Program-made: the position numbers and the translations under genes
Notes under the pieces: generated by a model
The model's database searches: none
What the model saw: the letters and a program-made list of their open reading frames with translations, nothing else
What the model was told of the DNA's origin: nothing
In this document: positions 3,070 through 34,866 of the stretch, piece after piece
How the letters are laid out: each line of letters starts with the position of its first letter
Position numbering within the stretch: the first letter of the stretch is position 1
Source: Hydrococcus sp. Prado102
GTDB taxonomy: Bacteria; Cyanobacteriota; Cyanobacteriia; Cyanobacteriales; Microcystaceae
Assembly (NCBI GenBank): GCA_025454425.1
Contig: JALOOL010000095.1
Location: 1-35,057, forward strand
Length of the DNA stretch: 35,057 nucleotides
Direction: 5' to 3'

Positions 3070-3127
3070 ACTTTCGACTTTCGACTTTCGACTTTCAGAC
3101 GGGCTACGCCAACGACTTTCGACTTTT
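3070..3127. repeat. Tandem heptamer CTTTCGA between adaptor and pump genes
   Basis: Three consecutive copies of the heptamer CTTTCGA, then CTTTC, are interrupted by a 19-bp GC-rich insert containing GGGCTACGCC, after which the heptamer resumes (CTTTCGA, CTTTT). The tract runs to 10 bp before the chosen pump start. The same heptamer in reverse complement recurs at 30264-30296. Short tandem heptamers are a recognised class in cyanobacteria. Confidence 0.8.
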
Positions 3128-13993: not shown

Positions 13994-16900
13994 ATGAAAA
14001 TAATTCAAGATTATACGATATTAGAAATCGTCGATCGCGAGGGTAAAACCGTTATTTATCGAGGCGAGTATCAAAACAAAATTTTTATCCTTAAGACGTT
14101 TCAAGGTGAATATCCAACCTCTGGAGAAATAGCGCAACTTCAACACGAGTATCAGTTGGCTAAAGCGTTAAATATTTCAGGCATTATTAAACCTCATTTG
14201 CTACAAATTTGTGACGATTGTCCTATTTTAGTTTATGAAAATTTTCCAGGTAAGCCACTCAAACAGTATTTACGCGATCGCGAAATTAGCGTTGAAGAGT
14301 TTCTGAAAATCGCTATTGGGATTGTTAGAACCCTTCAGAAAATTCACGATCGCGAAATTATCCATAAAAATATGACCCCCCAATCTATTTGGATAGAGGA
14401 GGCAACTGGACGGGTTAAAATTACCGATTTTAGTTTAGCATCTTCCTTTCCTTTGGATAAAGCAGTTTATAACTCTCTTCAATTAACAAGGGAAAATCTT
14501 CTTTATATTTCTCCCGAACAAACGGGACGAATGAATCGCGCGCTCGATTATCGAAGTGATTTTTATTCTTTGGGGATAATCTTTTATGAGATGTTAGCTG
14601 GGTTTTCACCTTGTCAATCGGAAGATCCAATGAAACTAATTCACTGTCATCTTGCTAAAAGACTTACATCGCTTCATCAGTTAAATCCTAGAATTCCTCA
14701 GACAATTTCCAATCTTATCGATAAGCTTATTTGTAAGATAGCTGAAGACAGATATCAAAGCAGTTATGGCATTCAATTCGATCTAGAAATATGTTTGAGT
14801 CAATGGAAAAAACAAGGCACGATTGAATTGTTTTCACTTGGCGATCGCGACATTTCTAAAAAATTACGCATTCCACAAAAGCTTTATGAACGAGAACGAG
14901 AAATAGCTATTTTGTTAAACGCTTTTGAAAACATTAATAAAAGCAAAAATAAGTTAATTTTAATATCGGGATTAGCTGGCATTGGTAAAACGGCTTTAGT
15001 CAATAAAATTTATCAACTTATTACTCAAAGAAATGGTTATTTTGTCTCGGGTAAGTTTTCGCATCTAAAAACAGATATTCCTTATTATTTTCTGATTCAG
15101 GCTTTTCGAGAATTAATCCTTCAAATTTTAACTGAAAGCGAAGAGAAAATTCAAACTTGGAAAGAGAAATTGTTAGAAGCATTAGGTTTGAACGGACAAT
15201 TAATGATTGATGTTATTCCTGAAGTAGAATTAATTATTGGCAAACAACCAACTGTCGCACCACTATCTGCACCAGAATCTAAAAATCGATTTCAGTCTGT
15301 TATTAAAAAATTTATTAGTGTATTTAGTCAAAAAGATCGTCCTTTAATTTTATTTTTTGACGATCTTCAATGGAGCGATTTTGCCTCTTTAAAATTAATT
15401 CATTTATTAATTACTCAATCAGAGGTAAAGCATTTATTAATCATTGGAACTTATCGCAGCAATGAAGTCAATAATAGTCATCCTTTAAAAACAACTATTA
15501 ATAACTTAGAGTTGTTAGGAGTCAAAGTAGAAAATTTAGTTCTTAAACCCTTAGAACTCGATGCGATCGCACAATTAATTACTGAAACTTTTTACTGTCA
15601 GATATCTGTATCGCGTCCTTTAGCAGAATTAATTTTAGAAAAAACAAACGGAAATCCCTTTTTTATCAATCAGCTTCTTCAATCGTTATACAAAGAAAAA
15701 TCGATTGCATTCAATCTTAAAAATAAATGTTGGCAATGGAATTTAGACAAAATCAAAAAGATGAATATTGCTGACAATATAGTTGAATTTATGATTGACA
15801 AAATCAAAAAGCTTTCAATATCTACTCAAGAAACCTTAAAAATAGCAGCTTGTATAGGTCATCAGTTTAGTTTAAATAAATTATCAGTTGTTAGCGGACA
15901 GAGTTCTCTTGAAACAGCTAATAATCTTTGGGAAGCTTTGGATAAAGGGTTAATTTTACCGACTATAAATTTTCATAACTTCATAGGAATAGATAGAGAT
16001 AATGTATCTGAATCTGAATTAGAAATTAAACATGAAGAACAATTGACTTATTATTTTGTTCACGATCGCGTTCAGCAAGCCACTTATTCTCTTTTATCAA
16101 AACAACAAAAAGAAAAAATTCATTTTCAAGTCGGAAATTTAATTTTAATCAATACTCCTCAAGAAAAATTAAAAGAAAATATTTTTGATATTGTCAATCA
16201 TCTTAATCTGGGAATTCAAGCCAAAACCTCACAATTTCAAAAAGAAAAACTAGCACGATTAAACCTAATAGCTGGAAAAAAAGCTAAATCTTCTACTGCT
16301 TATGAAGCGTCTTTAAATTATCTGGAAACTGCCTTAAATCTCTTATCAAAAGATAGTTGGGAAACCCATTATCAACTTAGTTTTCAGCTACATCTTGAAT
16401 GTTCTGAATGCGAATATCTTAGCGGTCAATTTTACCGTGCAGAAAAAAGATTTGATTTAATCCTCGATCGCGTTCATACCAAAGCAGAAAAAGCTAAAGT
16501 TTATATCTTAAAAATTACGTTATATACCGACATTGGAAAGTTACAAGAAGCTATAGAAATTGGACTTGAATGTTTGAGTTTATTCAAAATTAATATCGAT
16601 CGTACAAAGCTTAAAACAGCCATAAATAAAGAAATAAAGCGCATTAATACAATCACTACTAATCGCCAGATTGAAGATCTATCTAATCTACCAAAAATGA
16701 CAAACAAAAATTCAATTGCAATTATGAATCTGTTGATGAGTTTAGCGGGTGTAACTTACTTTACTAATTTAGAATTATGGACTTTATTAATGCTGAAGAT
16801 GATTAATAAATCGCTGCGCTATGGAAACTCAGAAGTTTCTTCTTTTGCTTATAGTGCCTATGGATTAATTGTTGGTTCTGCTTTAGGTAACTATCAATGT

Positions 16901-19414
16901 GGATACGAATTTGGACAGTTAGCTATTAAAGTTAATAAAAAATTCGAGAATGTAGCATTATGGAGCAAGGTTTATTTTATGGTTGGTGCTTTTATCAATC
17001 ATTGGAAACAACCTATTCAAAACAATTATTTGATTTTAAGAAAAGCTTTTCAATATGGACTTGAAACAGGAGTTCCTAGCTTTTGCGCTTATTCTGTTAA
17101 CGTACTGGCAAGTACTATGTACTTTCAAGGATACCCTTTAGCTCAGCTATCTCAAGAGTTAGAGGAATTTTTAGAGTATGTAAAACAAGTTAAAAATATT
17201 CATGGAATTTATTTTCAAAAGCTTTTAAAACAAGTAATTCTCAGCTTACAAGATTTAACTTTTAGAACTGGTAATTTAAGCGATCGCGATTTTGATGAAG
17301 ACAATTTTTTACAAGAAATAAAAAAACTAAATCTTGGATTGCACCTGAGTTTTTACTCGATTGCAAAAATGCAGTTATTATATTTGTTTGGAGACTACAA
17401 ACGAGCAATTATCCTCGCTCAAGATTCAGAAAAAATAATTGGTTATTCTTTTGGTTTATGGCGTGTTGTAGAACATTATTTTTATTACTCATTAACCTTA
17501 ATATCTCTATTGAGACAATCCAAAAACCACTCTGGTAATTGGCAAATATTATTAGAAAACTTGAATAAATTTAAAACTTGGAGTGACAATTGTCCTGAAA
17601 ATTTTTTACATAAATACTTATTAATTTCAGCAGAAATGGCTTGCCTCTCTAACCAAGTTCTAGAAGCTATAGAACTCTACGATCGAGCGATCGCAGTGGC
17701 AAAAGTTAATAATTTTTTACTCGATGAAAGTTTAGCAAACGAACTCGCAGGAAAGTTCTATTTAACTAAAGGAAAAGACAAAGTTGCTAAAGTTTATTTA
17801 GAAGATGCTTATTATGGATATTTGAAGTGGGGAGCAATTGCTAAAGCCAGAAATCTACAACAAAATTATTCTTTATTACTCTCAAAAACCTTTACTCCAA
17901 TTGAAGTCAATTTTAGTTCCTTCGATCTTTCAACCATTTTAAAAGCTTATCAAGCAATATCGAGTGAATTTGTACTGGGTAAATTATTAGAAACTCTTAT
18001 GAAGATTGCTATCGAAAACGCAGGAGCGCAAAAAGGGTTTTTAATCTTTGAAAAAGAAGGAAAATGGGTAATTGAAGCAGAAGGTGCCATCGATTCTGAA
18101 AATGTTACAGTTTTGCGATCGCTCGATATTAATGCGATCGATTCTTCTACCCGAACAACATTTTTATCCGTTGCGATCGTCAACTATGCGATCCGAACCA
18201 AACAAGATATCGTTCTCAACAATGCTACTTGTGAAAAACAATTTATTTTAGATTCTTATATTACTACAACTCAGCCAAAATCAATTCTTTGTTTGCCCTT
18301 ACTTTATCAACGCAAACTCAGTGGCATTCTCTATTTAGAAAATAACTTAATAACAGATGCTTTTACCTTAGAGCGCGTTGAGATTCTAAAAATTATCTCA
18401 TCTCAAGCTGCTATTTCGATTGAAAATTCTCGTCTCTACGAACGATTAGAAGATTACAGTCGAACCCTAGAAATCAAAGTCGAAGAAAGAATGCGAGAAA
18501 TTCAGCGCAAAAATGAAGAACTAGCCAATACAATACATATCCTCAAAAAAACCCAAGCTCAAATTATCGCACAAGAAAAACTTGCCTCTCTCGGTACATT
18601 AACCGCAGGAATCGCTCACGAAATCAAAAATCCTCTCAACTTCGTTAATAATTTTGCCGAACTTTCAATCGAACTTGCGAAAGAACTATCAGAAGAAATC
18701 GCAAGTCAAAAAAATAAATTAGAAAGAGAAAGTCTTAACTGTATTGATGAAATTATTGACGATCTCTGTCAAAATGCCCAAAAAATTAACGAACATGGCA
18801 AAAGAGCCGATAAAATCGTTCGTGGAATGTTAATGCACTCGCGCGGCGAAAGTGCTTCTCGACAACCGACCAATCTAAATACTCTTCTCTTTGAAGCTGT
18901 CAATTTGATATATCATGGAATGCGAGCTAAAGATACTTCTTTTAACATTTCGATAGAAACCGATTTCGACGATAGTCTTGAATTAGTTGATGCGATCGCT
19001 CAAGATATCAGTCGAGTTTTTCTCAATATTATTGATAATGCGTGTTACGCTGCCTATCAAAAGAAAATCGAACTTCAAAACAATTTTAATGGTAAGAAAC
19101 CAGACTTTATTCCACTTTTGTTTGTCAGTACCAAAAATCTAAACTCATCCATTGAAATCCGCATTCGCGATAATGGAAAAGGAATTTCTCCAGAGATCGC
19201 AGACAAAATTTTTACTCCCTTTTTCACCACTAAACCAACGGGAGAAGGAACGGGTTTAGGACTATCGATCGGTCACGATATCATCGTACAAACTCATCAA
19301 GGCGACATTCGCGTTAAAACTGAAGTCGATCGCTATACCGAGTTTATAATTACATTACCAAAAACTGTTGTCCCAAACTCAGGATACCAACATGAAAGTG
19401 ATGGTTGTCGATGA
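13994..19414 (+). CDS. Hybrid Ser/Thr kinase-like, AAA ATPase, GAF, histidine kinase (HstK-type)
   Basis: An 1806-residue multidomain sensor. Order: residues 1-270, Ser/Thr-kinase fold (Lys34 in FILKTF, Glu52 in HEYQLAK, His124-Lys-Asn126, Asp145-Phe-Ser, SPEQ at 173, DFYSLG); 295-720, AAA/STAND ATPase with Walker A GLAGIGKT (326-333) and Walker B FFDDLQWSD; 720-1300, helical TPR-like repeats; about 1306-1480, GAF; a coiled coil; then histidine kinase with H-box AHEIKNP (His near 1542), N-box NIIDNACYAA, DNGKGIS and GTGLGLS. No membrane segment is seen, so it is probably cytoplasmic. The kinase HRD Asp is Asn and the DFG Gly is Ser, so the first domain is likely a pseudokinase. The 3' end overlaps the receiver gene, its probable phosphate acceptor. 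The divergent carotenoid oxygenase is 20 bp away. Confidence 0.93.
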   Translation: MKIIQDYTILEIVDREGKTVIYRGEYQNKIFILKTFQGEYPTSGEIAQLQHEYQLAKALNISGIIKPHLLQICDDCPILVYENFPGKPLKQYLRDREISVEEFLKIAIGIVRTLQKIHDREIIHKNMTPQSIWIEEATGRVKITDFSLASSFPLDKAVYNSLQLTRENLLYISPEQTGRMNRALDYRSDFYSLGIIFYEMLAGFSPCQSEDPMKLIHCHLAKRLTSLHQLNPRIPQTISNLIDKLICKIAEDRYQSSYGIQFDLEICLSQWKKQGTIELFSLGDRDISKKLRIPQKLYEREREIAILLNAFENINKSKNKLILISGLAGIGKTALVNKIYQLITQRNGYFVSGKFSHLKTDIPYYFLIQAFRELILQILTESEEKIQTWKEKLLEALGLNGQLMIDVIPEVELIIGKQPTVAPLSAPESKNRFQSVIKKFISVFSQKDRPLILFFDDLQWSDFASLKLIHLLITQSEVKHLLIIGTYRSNEVNNSHPLKTTINNLELLGVKVENLVLKPLELDAIAQLITETFYCQISVSRPLAELILEKTNGNPFFINQLLQSLYKEKSIAFNLKNKCWQWNLDKIKKMNIADNIVEFMIDKIKKLSISTQETLKIAACIGHQFSLNKLSVVSGQSSLETANNLWEALDKGLILPTINFHNFIGIDRDNVSESELEIKHEEQLTYYFVHDRVQQATYSLLSKQQKEKIHFQVGNLILINTPQEKLKENIFDIVNHLNLGIQAKTSQFQKEKLARLNLIAGKKAKSSTAYEASLNYLETALNLLSKDSWETHYQLSFQLHLECSECEYLSGQFYRAEKRFDLILDRVHTKAEKAKVYILKITLYTDIGKLQEAIEIGLECLSLFKINIDRTKLKTAINKEIKRINTITTNRQIEDLSNLPKMTNKNSIAIMNLLMSLAGVTYFTNLELWTLLMLKMINKSLRYGNSEVSSFAYSAYGLIVGSALGNYQCGYEFGQLAIKVNKKFENVALWSKVYFMVGAFINHWKQPIQNNYLILRKAFQYGLETGVPSFCAYSVNVLASTMYFQGYPLAQLSQELEEFLEYVKQVKNIHGIYFQKLLKQVILSLQDLTFRTGNLSDRDFDEDNFLQEIKKLNLGLHLSFYSIAKMQLLYLFGDYKRAIILAQDSEKIIGYSFGLWRVVEHYFYYSLTLISLLRQSKNHSGNWQILLENLNKFKTWSDNCPENFLHKYLLISAEMACLSNQVLEAIELYDRAIAVAKVNNFLLDESLANELAGKFYLTKGKDKVAKVYLEDAYYGYLKWGAIAKARNLQQNYSLLLSKTFTPIEVNFSSFDLSTILKAYQAISSEFVLGKLLETLMKIAIENAGAQKGFLIFEKEGKWVIEAEGAIDSENVTVLRSLDINAIDSSTRTTFLSVAIVNYAIRTKQDIVLNNATCEKQFILDSYITTTQPKSILCLPLLYQRKLSGILYLENNLITDAFTLERVEILKIISSQAAISIENSRLYERLEDYSRTLEIKVEERMREIQRKNEELANTIHILKKTQAQIIAQEKLASLGTLTAGIAHEIKNPLNFVNNFAELSIELAKELSEEIASQKNKLERESLNCIDEIIDDLCQNAQKINEHGKRADKIVRGMLMHSRGESASRQPTNLNTLLFEAVNLIYHGMRAKDTSFNISIETDFDDSLELVDAIAQDISRVFLNIIDNACYAAYQKKIELQNNFNGKKPDFIPLLFVSTKNLNSSIEIRIRDNGKGISPEIADKIFTPFFTTKPTGEGTGLGLSIGHDIIVQTHQGDIRVKTEVDRYTEFIITLPKTVVPNSGYQHESDGCR

Positions 19415-27498: not shown

Positions 27499-27639
27499 TT
27501 AATGAGGGAGGCAAGGGGGGAGCGAATTTAGTGCAACTTCATAGAGATTTTGACGAGAAGAGTAACCAATATAACTAAAAAGACCAACAACAATAAGTAG
27601 AGCAACTATAGCGATCGCTTTGGCTAAATTTAAGATTTT
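27499..27639 (-). other. Membrane-segment-like open frame without start codon
   Basis: The minus strand after pth reads KILNLAKAIAIVALLIVVGL then FSYIGYSSRQNLYEVALNS to a stop at 27499: one clean transmembrane helix of about 18 residues and a short polar tail, 46 codons. No ATG, GTG or TTG is in frame; upstream the frame overlaps the end of pth until a TGA. It could be a decayed small thylakoid or membrane protein gene, one using a rare start, or chance. Confidence 0.25.
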
Positions 27640-28267
27640 ATTCCTTAACTTGCGATGCTGGGGCGGCGGAACGATTGTTATAAAGACTCATCGTTTTAGC
27701 AATGCCTTCCTTGAGACTCATCTCTACAACCTTGAGACTAAGATCGAGTACTTCGCTGACGACTGCTGCTTCATCGGGCGCAAACTTTCCCAAAACGTGA
27801 GAAATCGTCTCTTTTTTGCCATCGGATTTCCCAATACCAAGGCGCAATCGGGGAAACTTTTCGGTTCCAAGGTGAGAAATTATCGATTTCATGCCGTTAT
27901 GTCCTCCCGCAGAACCCGATAAACGCATCCGCAATTTTCCTAGTGACAAATCCATATCGTCATAGATAATTAATACGGATTCTGGAGAGAGTTTATACCA
28001 ATCCGTAACAGCCCGAACTGCTTGTCCAGAACGATTCATGTATGTGAGGGGTTTAAGCAAGCGAACTTTATTGCCACTTCCCACAATTCCTTCTGTAAAT
28101 AGCCCGTGAAAGCGACCGTTCGGGTTCCAGGACAACTGCCAAGTTCGTGCGAGGAGATCGACAACTTCAAAGCCGATATTGTGTCGCGTTTTGTCGTATT
28201 TTGCTTCTGGGTTGCCCAAACCAACAATTAATTCGGGAATGACGAGATTGGTAGTTTCTGATGACAT
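27638..28267 (-). CDS. pth: Peptidyl-tRNA hydrolase
   Basis: A 209-residue esterase that recycles peptidyl-tRNA dropped from ribosomes. The full active-site set is visible: LIVGLGNP, His29 in KTRHNIGF (catalytic base), Asn78 in TYMNRSG (tRNA binding), Asp103 in IYDDMDL and GSAGGHNGMKSI. The length is slightly above the usual 190-200 because of a short N-terminal extension. The stop codon of the DUF2811 gene is 16 bp upstream on the same strand, so the two are likely cotranscribed. Confidence 0.96.
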   Translation of the reverse strand: MSSETTNLVIPELIVGLGNPEAKYDKTRHNIGFEVVDLLARTWQLSWNPNGRFHGLFTEGIVGSGNKVRLLKPLTYMNRSGQAVRAVTDWYKLSPESVLIIYDDMDLSLGKLRMRLSGSAGGHNGMKSIISHLGTEKFPRLRLGIGKSDGKKETISHVLGKFAPDEAAVVSEVLDLSLKVVEMSLKEGIAKTMSLYNNRSAAPASQVKE

Positions 28268-28283
28268 AACAAATAGCTATTGG

Positions 28284-28508
28284 CTAATTAACTTGCCCGA
28301 ATAGCGTTTCTAGATAGACGCGGGCGCAAGTAAAATAGCTTTGGGAATAAGGATCGCTTTGACTCTTTTCATTTTCTAACAAAAATAGCGAAAGTGCCGT
28401 GGCTAATACGCGATCGTGATCCCAATTTGGATGCTTCTCCAGATAGGTTTGTAGAGATTCGTGCAATTCTTCAGGAATTTCTGCAACAATGCTGACGGAT
28501 ATACTCAT
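28284..28508 (-). CDS. DUF2811 family small protein
   Basis: A 74-residue protein: MSISVSIVAEIPEELHESL, then LEKHPNWDHDRVLATALSLFLLEN and a C-terminal ARVYLETLF. This is the layout of the cyanobacterial DUF2811 family as I know it: a short strand followed by helices like a ribbon-helix-helix fold. Function is not established; a DNA-binding antitoxin-like role is inference from the fold pattern alone. It precedes pth by 16 bp. Its 5' side borders the DnaA-box-like cluster region. Confidence 0.75.
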   Translation of the reverse strand: MSISVSIVAEIPEELHESLQTYLEKHPNWDHDRVLATALSLFLLENEKSQSDPYSQSYFTCARVYLETLFGQVN

Positions 28509-28953
28509 AGCTACCTCAGAAGATAAATCATAAAAACACTAGCCAACTTTTTTTGTTTTCCCAAAGTTAAGCCAGCCTCAAGTAAATTTATGGGTGTAGG
28601 CACTATTTTTTACTCAGATAGGGTGGGGTTGTCAATGCTACAAAACATTACGAAACTTTTTATAAAAGATCGAGCTTTACGAAGAATCAAAGGTTTTACT
28701 CGATTTTTTTTTACATTTCTTTACAGTAACTCAGTATTTCAAATTTAGCCAAATGACGATCGCGAATTCCCCACTGACTCGCTAACCCTTGATTTTGTCA
28801 TCAAAGCCTGTGGAAAACTTGGGGTAAACTGTGGAAAAAGCCAAACTCCCTGTGGAAAAAGTGGGGAATTTCTTGGGGAAAAGACTCAAGAAAAATAAGA
28901 ATTGCAAATTTTTAACAAGCTACACAAATTCGGCGATTTTATTACAATTCTTC
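28509..28953. other. Intergenic region with DnaA-box cluster; candidate origin or DnaA site
   Basis: A 445-bp gene-free region. TGTGGAAAA occurs at 28809-28817, 28830-28838 and 28851-28859, all in one orientation with starts exactly 21 bp (two helical turns) apart. Degenerate relatives follow or intervene (TTGGGGTAAA at 28819, TTGGGGAAAA at 28873). The complement TTTTCCACA is the DnaA-box form reported for cyanobacteria, one base from the E. coli TTATCCACA. To the left, 28650-28750 is strongly AT-rich with long T runs (CGATTTTTTTTTACATTTC), as expected of a duplex-unwinding element. No dnaA or dnaN gene is in the window. An origin, a DnaA-titration site or a DnaA-controlled promoter are all possible. 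Confidence 0.55.
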
Positions 28954-29976
28954 TTAAAGAGATTCAATACATTGCTTCACCTTGTCGGTAAGAGACGGAT
29001 TTTCTACGTGTGCGACTAATTTTTGAGCGTCCCAGTAGCACAGTAGTGCCAATCTTCTTCGTCGGGTTGTCGTATACAAATTGCCCATGTTGAGTAAAGT
29101 AGTGACTTCTCCAATGCGATCGCCCAGATCTCGATAAAGTGCGATCGCGTTTTTGTAAAACTGTATGGCTTTTCTGGAGTTAGTCAAAAGACTGTAGGCA
29201 AACCCGATATTATGAAGCGTTATAGCTTCCCCAGCGCGATCGCCAAGTTTCTGACGGGTTAATAACACTTGATGATAAAGCAACAGTGCTTGTTTCGGCT
29301 GTCCGAGATCGTTATAGGTAGAGGCAATATTGTTTAAGGTAGTCGCTTCTGCTAGCACGTTTTTGATGGCTCGTTGGATGCTCAAAGCTTCTTGGAAATA
29401 CTCTAGCGCTTGCTCGAACTTTTTCAGGTTACTATAAGCAAATCCTATACCATTGAGTGTCGTTGCCTCGCCCGAATAATCTCCTAGTAAGCGACGCATC
29501 GCCAAAATTTGATGTTGCAGAATAAGCGCTCGTTTCGGTTCTCCCAATTTAGTGTAAATCAATGCCACATCATTGAGAGCAGATACTTCCCCTTGAGGAT
29601 TCTGCAATTGTTGAAAAAGCAATACGGCTTCGTTAAGATACTCAAGAGCTTGCGAAAACTGTCCCAAACGGCTGTGAGTGGAACCTAAATTACTCAGCGC
29701 GATCGCTTGTGCCTGACGATTGCCAAGTTCTCTAGCGGCGGCTAGTGCCTCAACAAAAGAAGTTAGCGCTTCCTGAAGTTGCCAACAACTCAGATAAGCT
29801 AAACCCATATCATTGAGCGTGTAGCCTTCTAAAGCGCGATCGCAAATGGCTCTAGCTAAATGCAAATTTTCGGCAGTCAGATTGAGGTATTCTTGGAATA
29901 AGCCTTGCTTGTAGTAGCGATTGGCTTCATTACGACGATATTCCCATTCTTGGACTTGATTTAGAGATTGCGTCAT
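28954..29976 (-). CDS. Tetratricopeptide-repeat protein
   Basis: A 340-residue soluble protein built almost wholly of TPR units about 40 residues apart, of the kinesin-light-chain/Rapsyn-like type: LSNLGSTHSRLGQFSQALEYLNEAVLLFQQL, ALNDVALIYTKLGEPKRAL, TLNGIGFAYSNLKKFEQALEYFQEAL, TLNNIASTYNDLGQPKQALLLY, TLHNIGFAYSLLTNSRKAIQFY and TLLNMGNLYTTTRRRRLAL. Inter-repeat helices carry (L)GDR.GEA-type linkers. No signal peptide or catalytic domain is present, so it is probably a protein-protein scaffold; partners are unknown. The 3' end faces the DnaA-box region. Confidence 0.9.
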   Translation of the reverse strand: MTQSLNQVQEWEYRRNEANRYYKQGLFQEYLNLTAENLHLARAICDRALEGYTLNDMGLAYLSCWQLQEALTSFVEALAAARELGNRQAQAIALSNLGSTHSRLGQFSQALEYLNEAVLLFQQLQNPQGEVSALNDVALIYTKLGEPKRALILQHQILAMRRLLGDYSGEATTLNGIGFAYSNLKKFEQALEYFQEALSIQRAIKNVLAEATTLNNIASTYNDLGQPKQALLLYHQVLLTRQKLGDRAGEAITLHNIGFAYSLLTNSRKAIQFYKNAIALYRDLGDRIGEVTTLLNMGNLYTTTRRRRLALLCYWDAQKLVAHVENPSLTDKVKQCIESL

Positions 29977-30480
29977 CGGTTTTTGGTTAAACTAAAACGA
30001 ATTGTTTCTGGTAACGCAGACTGTCAAAAGAAGGCAGAGGGACTGGGCATACAAGGTAGCGAGGTTTCCTCGCCACACAGCCCCTTCAGAGGGCTTTTAT
30101 TGTTGTTTTTGGAAGAAGCTTGAACTCCTCCCTAAAACTCTTCCCCCTATTTGAAGGAGAGCTTAAATTATGATTAATTTTATTATTGTCTACCTTTAGG
30201 TACAGGACGTAAATACTAAGTTGTGCTTTACTGACAAAACAAGTTGGGGAATGGGGAATGGGGAAAGTCGAAAGTCGAAAGTCGAAAGTCGAAAGTATTG
30301 ATGAAACTGGTCACTGATAACTGAAAAAGTGTCCTAGTATCCCGATCGCAAATGAGATGTCCTTAGAAATCAGCCTTTGAGTTGAGTGGCGATCGCTTAA
30401 TCATATTGCTTAGGGACGACGATTTGCACTGGAGATCTTCATAAAATACCTGGACATCCTTGTTTAAGAGCTATAAATTT
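29977..30480. other. Intergenic region upstream of psaL
   Basis: These 504 bases hold no gene. Items seen: hairpin GCGAGG-TTT-CCTCGC at 30059-30073; hairpin AGCCC-CTTCAGA-GGGCT at 30079-30095 followed by a T-rich run; GGGGAAT heptamers and AAAGTCG heptamers at 30246-30296; and a GGTCACTGATAACTG copy at about 30309. The psaL promoter must lie in the last 150 bases, but I cannot pick -35/-10 boxes with confidence. Confidence 0.6.
30246..30296. repeat. Tandem heptamers GGGGAAT and AAAGTCG
   Basis: GGGGAAT is repeated twice and partly a third time (30246-30263), followed directly by four exact copies of AAAGTCG (30264-30291) and a partial fifth. AAAGTCG is the reverse complement register of the CTTTCGA tract at 3070-3127, so the same repeat unit occurs in two distant intergenic sites. 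Confidence 0.85.
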
Positions 30481-31017
30481 ATGACTACGTTTGTTGACAA
30501 AATCGAGCAATCGAACAATAACCCCAGAGATCCTAGAAATCGCGAGGTAGTTTTCACCGCAGACAGTCCCTACAATGGAAATTTAGCAACGCCAATTAAT
30601 TCTTCGCCTCTAGTAAAAACATTTATCAACAACTTGCCTGCCTATCGTCCCGGTTTAACCCCCCTTCGTCGAGGCTTGGAAGTAGGATTAGCACATGGTT
30701 ACTGGTTAGTCGGGCCATTCTTCAAATTTAATCCGATGCGCTTTAGTGAATATGGTTCTCTAATCGCATTGCTGTCTACTGTCAGCCTTATTTTAATTTC
30801 CACCCTGGCTATTTCGCTTTATGCTGGAAGCAATCCTCCCGCACCGACAGCAACAATTACAACTCCTAATCCTCCTAAAGCTTTAGCCGATTCTGAAGGC
30901 TGGAACGAGTATGCAAGCGGCTTTTTCATTGGTGGTGTTGGAGGCGCGATCGTTGCTTATGCAATTTTGGCAAATGTTGATGTATTTGGAAATTTCTTGA
31001 ATTTAGTCGGTCTTTAA
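30481..31017 (+). CDS. psaL: Photosystem I reaction centre subunit XI
   Basis: A 178-residue thylakoid membrane protein that sits at the centre of the photosystem I trimer (or tetramer) and binds chlorophyll and carotenoid. Seen: an N-terminal stromal segment with NNLPAYRPGLTPLRRGLEVGLAHGYWLVGPF, the diagnostic block; KFNPMRFSEYGSLIALLSTVSLI leading into the next membrane helix; and a C-terminal helix EYASGFFIGGVGGAIVAYAIL. I chose ATG 30481 (MTTFVDKIEQ) over an in-frame start at 30460. It has no psaI partner within the window on either side, and a strong terminator follows 19 bp downstream. Confidence 0.97.
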   Translation: MTTFVDKIEQSNNNPRDPRNREVVFTADSPYNGNLATPINSSPLVKTFINNLPAYRPGLTPLRRGLEVGLAHGYWLVGPFFKFNPMRFSEYGSLIALLSTVSLILISTLAISLYAGSNPPAPTATITTPNPPKALADSEGWNEYASGFFIGGVGGAIVAYAILANVDVFGNFLNLVGL

Positions 31018-34623: not shown

Positions 34624-34794
34624 CTAGAAGAATGGTTTTTCTTGAGACTTAATATACTCTTTAAGTTTATCAATTGGTGCGCCTCCAGTTGAGGCGACAT
34701 AATAGGAATTCGACCAAAAAGCAACGCCGTCGTAAAATTTAGATACCTCAGTAGGAAAGTCTTTTTTCATAGTTCTTGCAGTCGCGCTTTTCAG
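34624..34794 (-). pseudogene. tnpA: C-terminal remnant of IS200/IS605 transposase TnpA
   Basis: The minus strand reads LKSATARTMKKDFPTEVSKF, then YDGVAFWSNSYYVASTGGAP and IDKLKEYIKSQEKPFF, then a stop. FWSxSYYVASxGGxPIxxLxxYIxxQ is the C-terminal block of the Y1 (HUH) transposase TnpA, which includes the catalytic tyrosine helix region upstream of it. The N-terminal half with the HUH histidines is absent: upstream the frame meets stop codons inside ACTGATAACTG repeats. It is therefore a dead fragment of about 57 codons. It is divergent from tnpB, the usual IS605 layout. Confidence 0.75.
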
Positions 34795-34866
34795 TTATCA
34801 GTTAACAGTAATCAGTTATCAGTGCTACATTTAACTGATTACTGATAACTGACGACTGATAACTGA
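34791..34866. repeat. ACTGATAACTG / CAGTTATCAGT repeat cluster
   Basis: At least four copies of CAGTTATCAGT or its complement are packed here, interleaved with AACAGTAATCAGT, forming a large imperfect inverted repeat around GCTACATTTA. Related copies occur at about 8711, 24598, 30309 and 34222. The cluster replaces the missing 5' half of tnpA. Confidence 0.75.

Follow-up and report, generated by a model that had tools for sequence, protein, structure and literature searches.

A conserved ladder of DnaA boxes upstream of DUF2811 points to a DnaA control circuit away from the origin in cyanobacteria

In the genome of Hydrococcus sp. Prado102, three exact DnaA boxes upstream of a DUF2811 gene belong to a ladder of boxes that is widely conserved across Cyanobacteriia. 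Species that lose DnaA tend to lose the boxes and the gene as well, a pattern that suggests a hitherto undescribed regulatory circuit of DnaA and not an origin. Probably the DUF2811 regulatory region contains a DnaA-binding ladder of which these three boxes are the strong sites, and through which DnaA would set DUF2811 transcription. All evidence for this reading is comparative sequence, from which we infer DnaA binding and the direction of regulation. Free-living cyanobacteria are a group with repeated DnaA loss, and what DnaA does where it is kept yet unneeded for replication has been described as unclear (PMC7198777). For this question, the conserved box array and the co-occurring DUF2811 gene provide a named target, testable in existing deletion strains. 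Neither an account of the DUF2811 box ladder nor a DnaA ChIP-seq paper for S. elongatus was found in the literature searched, with most subscription journals outside its reach.

The window, the whole stretch of 35,057 bases that was analysed, is contig C341 of a 6.52-Mb host genome in 533 contigs. It holds only three exact copies of the 9-mer TGTGGAAAA, all on the + strand at 28809-28817, 28830-28838 and 28851-28859, in the single orientation and with the 21-bp steps that the initial annotation had described; a further copy, TGGGGAAAA at 28874-28882, has one mismatch. The degenerate TTGGGGAAAA-type copies claimed around the triplet are genuine and lie in register (28820, 28862 and 28874), the left flank is AT-rich as claimed (67% A+T at 28540-28720 versus 58% in the whole window), and the neighbours are indeed DUF2811, pth and a TPR gene. 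The complement had been called the cyanobacterial form of the DnaA box, in agreement with the same 9-mer reported for three cyanobacteria (PMC4674748). Matches to TGTGGAAAA with one mismatch show no excess in the window (18 versus a shuffle mean of 13.4, with at least 18 in 14 of 100 shuffles), so what stands out is the exact triplet with its phasing. The features are listed in Table 1.

Table 1 Features of the DUF2811 upstream region and its downstream gene, in window coordinates
Feature	Position	Strand	Remarks
pth, peptidyl-tRNA hydrolase	27638..28267	-	16 bp downstream of DUF2811
DUF2811 gene	28284..28508	-	PF10929, E 1.1e-25; 74 aa; conserved partner of the array
-10-like TAAAAA, weak	28607-28612	-	17-bp spacer from the -35-like TTGACA
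Conserved promoter-like block	28629..28650	-	TTGACA (-35 like) at 28630-28635; putative promoter activity
GGGGAATTC, copy of a conserved GGGGAwTTT-like motif	28764..28772	-	downstream of the ladder
DnaA box 3, TTTTCCACA	28809..28817	-	nearest DUF2811; 8 of 9 positions at least 99% identical, ninth 93% (103 distinct arrays)
Weak in-register box, TTTACCCCA	28820..28828	-	between boxes 2 and 3
DnaA box 2, TTTTCCACA	28830..28838	-	
DnaA box 1, TTTTCCACA	28851..28859	-	
Weak in-register box, AATTCCCCA	28862..28870	-	
Outer box, TTTTCCCCA	28874..28882	-	
Conserved motif, TTTGCAATTCTTATTTTT	28891..28908	-	upstream of the ladder; 18/18 in the window

A small ORF at 28831-29019 (+) overlaps the ladder, is without a Pfam match and was taken as spurious. 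An Rfam search of 28200-29100 for structured RNA gave one chance-level match (E 4.7) and none near a gathering score, and the ORFs listed at 26-32 kb include no recognisable replication gene (the Pfam scan covered seven window proteins). Elsewhere in the window, heptamer tandem repeats (TGGGGAA x3 and GAAAGTC x4.9) occupy 30245-30296 upstream of psaL (30460-31017), further heptamer arrays lie at 3070-3096 and 34791-34866, and G+C falls to 29-30% within 15001-18000 (42% window-wide).

Across the 6.52 Mb of the host genome TGTGGAAAA occurs 65 times, compared with 38 for the reversed control. Pairs of the 9-mer 8-16 bp apart are found at four places, all inside two triplets, one in the window and one on contig C155. 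A simple estimate gives about 4e-8 triplets with these gaps, so the triplets are far above chance. Among 118 related genomes, an exact triplet (gaps 10-14) is present in 48 and the reversed pattern in none. By dnaA status, an exact triplet is present anywhere in the genome in 46 of 98 dnaA-positive relatives versus 2 of 20 dnaA-less ones (G070 and G088), dnaA-less meaning an assembly without a Bac_DnaA match; these absences rest on assemblies, two of the 20 being only 71-75% complete, and some may be assembly gaps (G070 is 95% and G075 75% complete). The G088 triplet is a tandem repeat. It lies on a 26.7-kb contig (C2, locus L015) and, like an array on the Pantoea plasmid pSOE2 (L068), consists of tandem repeats of the same 9-mer with identical spacers that resemble plasmid iterons. 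Unlike these iteron-like arrays, the window array has spacers that differ and is tied to one gene, and plasmid iterons were rejected as an explanation for it.

Contigs of named genomes contain at least 117 triplet stretches. Among those listed, 18 are near DUF2811, 31 near guaA and/or a CDF transporter gene, 14 near a cyanobacterial-type dnaN and 12 near a distant dnaN, and 42 are near none of DUF2811, guaA, CDF and dnaN. The 18 DUF2811 stretches among the matches listed are cyanobacterial and include Pseudanabaena, Phormidium, Spirulina, Limnothrix, Stenomitos and Thermosynechococcaceae. Seven exact triplets in the related genomes (L010, L022, L023, L024, L029, L030 and L033) are likewise near neither DUF2811, guaA, CDF nor dnaN.

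Conservation in relatives, a check that the initial annotation had named, was confirmed: the array is kept widely across Cyanobacteriia upstream of DUF2811. For 89 of the 91 genomes with a DUF2811 match, giving 90 regions, as much as 1,100 bp in front of the gene was scored for the best TTTTCCACA triplet with steps of 19-24 bp (maximum 27); G028 and G039, along with the weak second matches of G062 and G067, were left out. A score of at least 23 is reached by 76 of 83 dnaA-positive regions versus 1 of 7 dnaA-less regions (Fisher p 1.8e-5, a p-value that overstates independence because the genomes are related). The reversed-sequence control has a maximum of 21, with 0 of 90 reaching 23, and the opposite orientation never scores above 20. 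The seven dnaA-positive regions below 23 comprise five genomes of genus g12, one region of only 461 bp at a contig end (G007), and G096, which scores 22 and is congeneric with the dnaA-less G070, also at 22. The dnaA-less genome still at 23 is G027.

The pattern extends to further loci. Among the 30 best HMM matches of a phylum sample, 28 score at least 23 (four of those genomes had been scored earlier), and the two failures, at 19 and 22, belong to f41, probably marine picocyanobacteria, whose genomes have 2-5 DUF2811 matches apiece among the matches listed. In a second set of 15 loci, six of them scored earlier, 14 pass, the exception being the dnaA-less G006. In nine g14 genomes the protein search gave either no DUF2811 match (eight) or a weak one (the ninth); all nine have a divergent HMM match with a 25-26/27 array upstream, and two of these matches exceed the Pfam cut-off. 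One genome, G012, carries a second divergent DUF2811 gene (L264, C1:1902716-1904009) with a perfect array upstream, its main copy scoring 26/27. Only 3 of 23 other DUF2811 triplet loci have pth nearby, two of the three being from one genome.

The array is a ladder of same-direction strong and weak boxes at a pitch of about 11 bp, followed by a promoter-like block with TTGACA. When 103 distinct arrays are aligned on box 3, peaks in register appear at -65, -54, -43, -21, -10 and 0, no box-like peaks appear on the opposite strand, and the box steps are 21-22/21-22 bp in 101 of the 103. Conservation spans about -95 to +140 relative to box 3 and includes A/T tracts downstream of the ladder; the upstream TTTGCAATTCTTATTTTT motif persists in several genomes with decayed boxes. 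Extending the alignment to the start codon revealed the conserved block TAACATTTCGCAGCATTGACAA with an exact TTGACA, which we read as a -35 region, about 160 bp from box 3 in the window; a consensus promoter scan does not call the block at 28629-28650. A possible RpaB HLR1 site was discarded as too weak (median 12/14 in dnaA-positive regions versus 10 in the reversed control).

DnaA would most likely assemble head to tail on the same-direction strong and weak boxes, which lie about one helical turn apart, and the bound DnaA would set DUF2811 transcription from the promoter-like block about 160 bp further downstream. Head-to-tail assembly on same-direction boxes has been proposed for datA, as reported in PMC5742627. 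E. coli DnaA is reported to prefer box pairs 2-3 bp apart (PMC11317965), and a 2-bp gap between boxes gives the 11-bp pitch of the ladder, matching this preference. As expected of a DnaA-regulated promoter, the boxes lie upstream of a conserved gene and a promoter-like block, whose activity is putative. A counterpoint is the distance from the array to the DUF2811 ATG, which varies from 215 to 572 bp and is loose for promoter control.

Both the gene and the boxes tend to follow dnaA. An even phylum sample of 386 genomes includes 186 of class Cyanobacteriia (presences plus listed absences, in both searches), and among these DUF2811 is present in 167 of 167 dnaA-positive genomes versus 6 of 19 dnaA-less ones. 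The 13 double absences span at least five groups (f13, f7, g67, g66 and g76), of which g66 and g76 also include members with both genes, so the joint losses look independent, judged from family and genus labels without a tree. No such link to dnaA is seen for control genes in the set of 118 relatives, with CDF in 73 of 98 dnaA-positive versus 12 of 20 dnaA-less genomes and guaA in 95 of 98 versus 20 of 20. After an HMM search, six dnaA-positive genomes of that set are without DUF2811: four are 61-87% complete assemblies (G004, G041, G078 and G116) and two have partial or weak DnaA matches (G066 and G079). Conversely, six dnaA-less Cyanobacteriia genomes have a DUF2811 match (G022, G380, G027, G031, G060 and G444). 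The gene is broken by stops in G022 and the match is weaker in G380, and four apparently keep it intact: G027, G031 and G060 with intact reading frames, the TAG of G060 being its normal end, and G444 by HMM match. DUF2811 is thus not strictly tied to DnaA. Taken together with the ladder and the promoter-like block, the co-occurrence makes DnaA control of DUF2811 the most economical reading.

Within genera, it is the boxes that decay. In g25 the dnaA-positive G087 scores 27/27 versus 19/27 in the dnaA-less G060, and in g13 the dnaA-positive G015 and G038 score 26 versus 21, 22 and 23 in the dnaA-less G022, G031 and G027. In G060 the boxes have decayed, but the upstream motif still matches at 17/18 and the promoter-like block at 20/22. 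Box retention therefore depends on dnaA in evolution, as would be expected of a DnaA-regulated promoter, with the exception of genus g12, in which dnaA is present, the upstream motif is kept at 17/18 in all five genomes and the boxes score only 18-20. With the two marine picocyanobacterial loci that have no clear array, g12 indicates that DUF2811 can do without the array. This decay also bears on the notion that the 9-mers serve another DNA-binding protein and merely resemble DnaA boxes, a notion that has room because DnaA binding is here deduced from sequence. The boxes decay where dnaA is lost, and in three cyanobacteria this 9-mer is the reported DnaA box (PMC4674748); we regard this notion as the least probable of the readings considered.

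The initial annotation had called the triplet a candidate origin or DnaA site. Its second half is well supported as a sequence-based reading, by the conservation of the array, the layout of its boxes and their decay where dnaA is missing; its first half is not. A genome scan for box clusters, which the annotation had also suggested, revealed a tighter cluster on contig C425, where three exact boxes lie within 38 bp just upstream of dnaN, two of them 11 bp apart and one inverted. The usual setting of a cyanobacterial oriC adjoins dnaN (PMC4674748), and the C425 cluster is expected to be oriC. On the same contig, near dnaN, an ORF (L008:930-2285) resembles by eye the C-terminal half of DnaE and the C part of a split intein. 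Like an oriC, the window array is a cluster of DnaA boxes, and its several boxes, A+T-rich flank and conserved downstream A/T tracts would suit the chromosome's replication origin or a second origin, but it is next to neither dnaN (on C425) nor dnaA (on C158, with one exact box within the gene and no cluster alongside). Within-window cumulative GC skew is lowest near 28 kb, with small swings.

Mapped origins and gene distances argue the same way. Mapping in Synechococcus sp. PCC 7002 is reported to place the origin, or replication peak, near dnaA at position 1 (PMC7198777). The PCC 7117 chromosome (NZ_CP016477, 3,087,720 bp) has dnaA at 331, dnaN at 1.33 Mb and DUF2811, with a 25/27 array, at 2,347,052. 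If the two strains are collinear, the DUF2811 array (site 1) is about 0.74 Mb from the mapped origin in Picosynechococcus (PCC 7002 map, PCC 7117 position), and is therefore not the origin there. Of 24 genomes searched for dnaN, 23 have it on one contig with DUF2811, at distances from 0.8% to 50% of the contig (median 28%, the contig taken as circular). Nearness does occur, with DUF2811 within 2.1% of dnaN in 4 of the 23 (G008, G037, G105 and G103), but the distance is not fixed: it is DUF2811, not dnaN, with which the array stays. The array is very probably not the origin, and we give its being the chromosome's origin or a second one only a very small chance.

The main rival to DnaA control of DUF2811 is that the array is a datA- or DBC-like off-origin site of DnaA titration or inactivation, beside DUF2811 by chance, which together with the guaA/CDF triplet buffers free DnaA. 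E. coli datA is reported to require its same-direction cluster, and similar clusters repress initiation in B. subtilis and Streptomyces (PMC5742627). The host genome has a second triplet, on C155, and this second site (site 2) is usually found where guaA and a CDF cation transporter gene converge. Lying between their 3' ends, it would be the promoter of neither. Site 2 is patchy, with conservation confined to its boxes (47 distinct arrays). It is present at the CDF 3' end in 21 of 60 dnaA-positive versus 0 of 10 dnaA-less regions (70 of 85 genomes), and at guaA in 14 of 70 versus 0 of 20 (90 of 115 genomes, the 70 including G051 with no sequence beyond the gene and G096 with only 220 bases). 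In the host genome guaA is on a different contig from the C155 triplet, and between that triplet and the CDF gene, which is often adjacent elsewhere, lie two overlapping ORFs (L006:10393-11041 on C155) that resemble transposase pieces by eye. Against titration at site 1 stand its large footprint, which includes the promoter-like block, and its tie to one gene, and pure titration gives no reason for the co-occurrence of DUF2811 and dnaA. As the account of site 1 we find it unlikely, and a titration or datA-like role may hold as well, notably at site 2.

If DnaA controls DUF2811, this control is not essential in the strains in which dnaA has been deleted: deletions in PCC 7002, PCC 6803 and Nostoc 7120 are reported to grow normally under optimal conditions, and Synechocystis can reportedly dispense with DnaA, whose level there is below detection (PMC7198777). 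DUF2811 itself encodes a protein of about 60-90 aa across genomes. A PDB sequence search found no solved relative, and two AlphaFold models are of low confidence (pLDDT 61 and 62). A ribbon-helix-helix fold suggested by a by-eye pattern was dropped, with no support from Pfam, PDB sequences, these models or a Foldseek search with the first of them. The literature search, which most subscription journals lay beyond, found no paper that names DUF2811. Because it is nearly always found with dnaA within the class, DUF2811 probably works in the DnaA pathway. DnaA-regulating factors such as Hda, YabA and SirA are known. We tentatively propose, as a possibility that falls short of an even chance, that cyanobacteria have in DUF2811 a dedicated partner or regulator of DnaA, like these in role and not in ancestry, and that DnaA controls DUF2811 via the ladder, closing a feedback loop. 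If so, the DUF2811-ladder module would be one reason why species that do not need DnaA for replication still keep dnaA.

Known systems each share part of this arrangement. The cyanobacterial oriC by dnaN has the same TTTTCCACA boxes, but the array adjoins neither dnaN nor dnaA, and the cluster at dnaN in the host includes an inverted box and a pair 11 bp apart. DARS1 and DARS2 of E. coli have a three-box core with box I pointing opposite to boxes II and III (PMC5742627), whereas all three boxes of the array point in one direction. The array shares with datA of E. coli and with the B. subtilis and Streptomyces clusters an off-origin, non-coding location and same-direction boxes (PMC5742627), the essential boxes of datA likewise being in one direction; it differs from datA in its promoter-like block, its one constant gene neighbour and a position that is not fixed relative to dnaN. 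DnaA-regulated promoters among the E. coli ChIP-seq targets have boxes upstream of a gene and in-register strong and weak sites (PMC11317965), and the intergenic DnaA clusters of B. subtilis also lie upstream of a gene (as cited in PMC7198777). Compared with these E. coli and B. subtilis promoters, the cyanobacterial array precedes another gene, its ladder is longer than a pair, it is conserved widely across Cyanobacteriia, and its gene co-occurs with dnaA.
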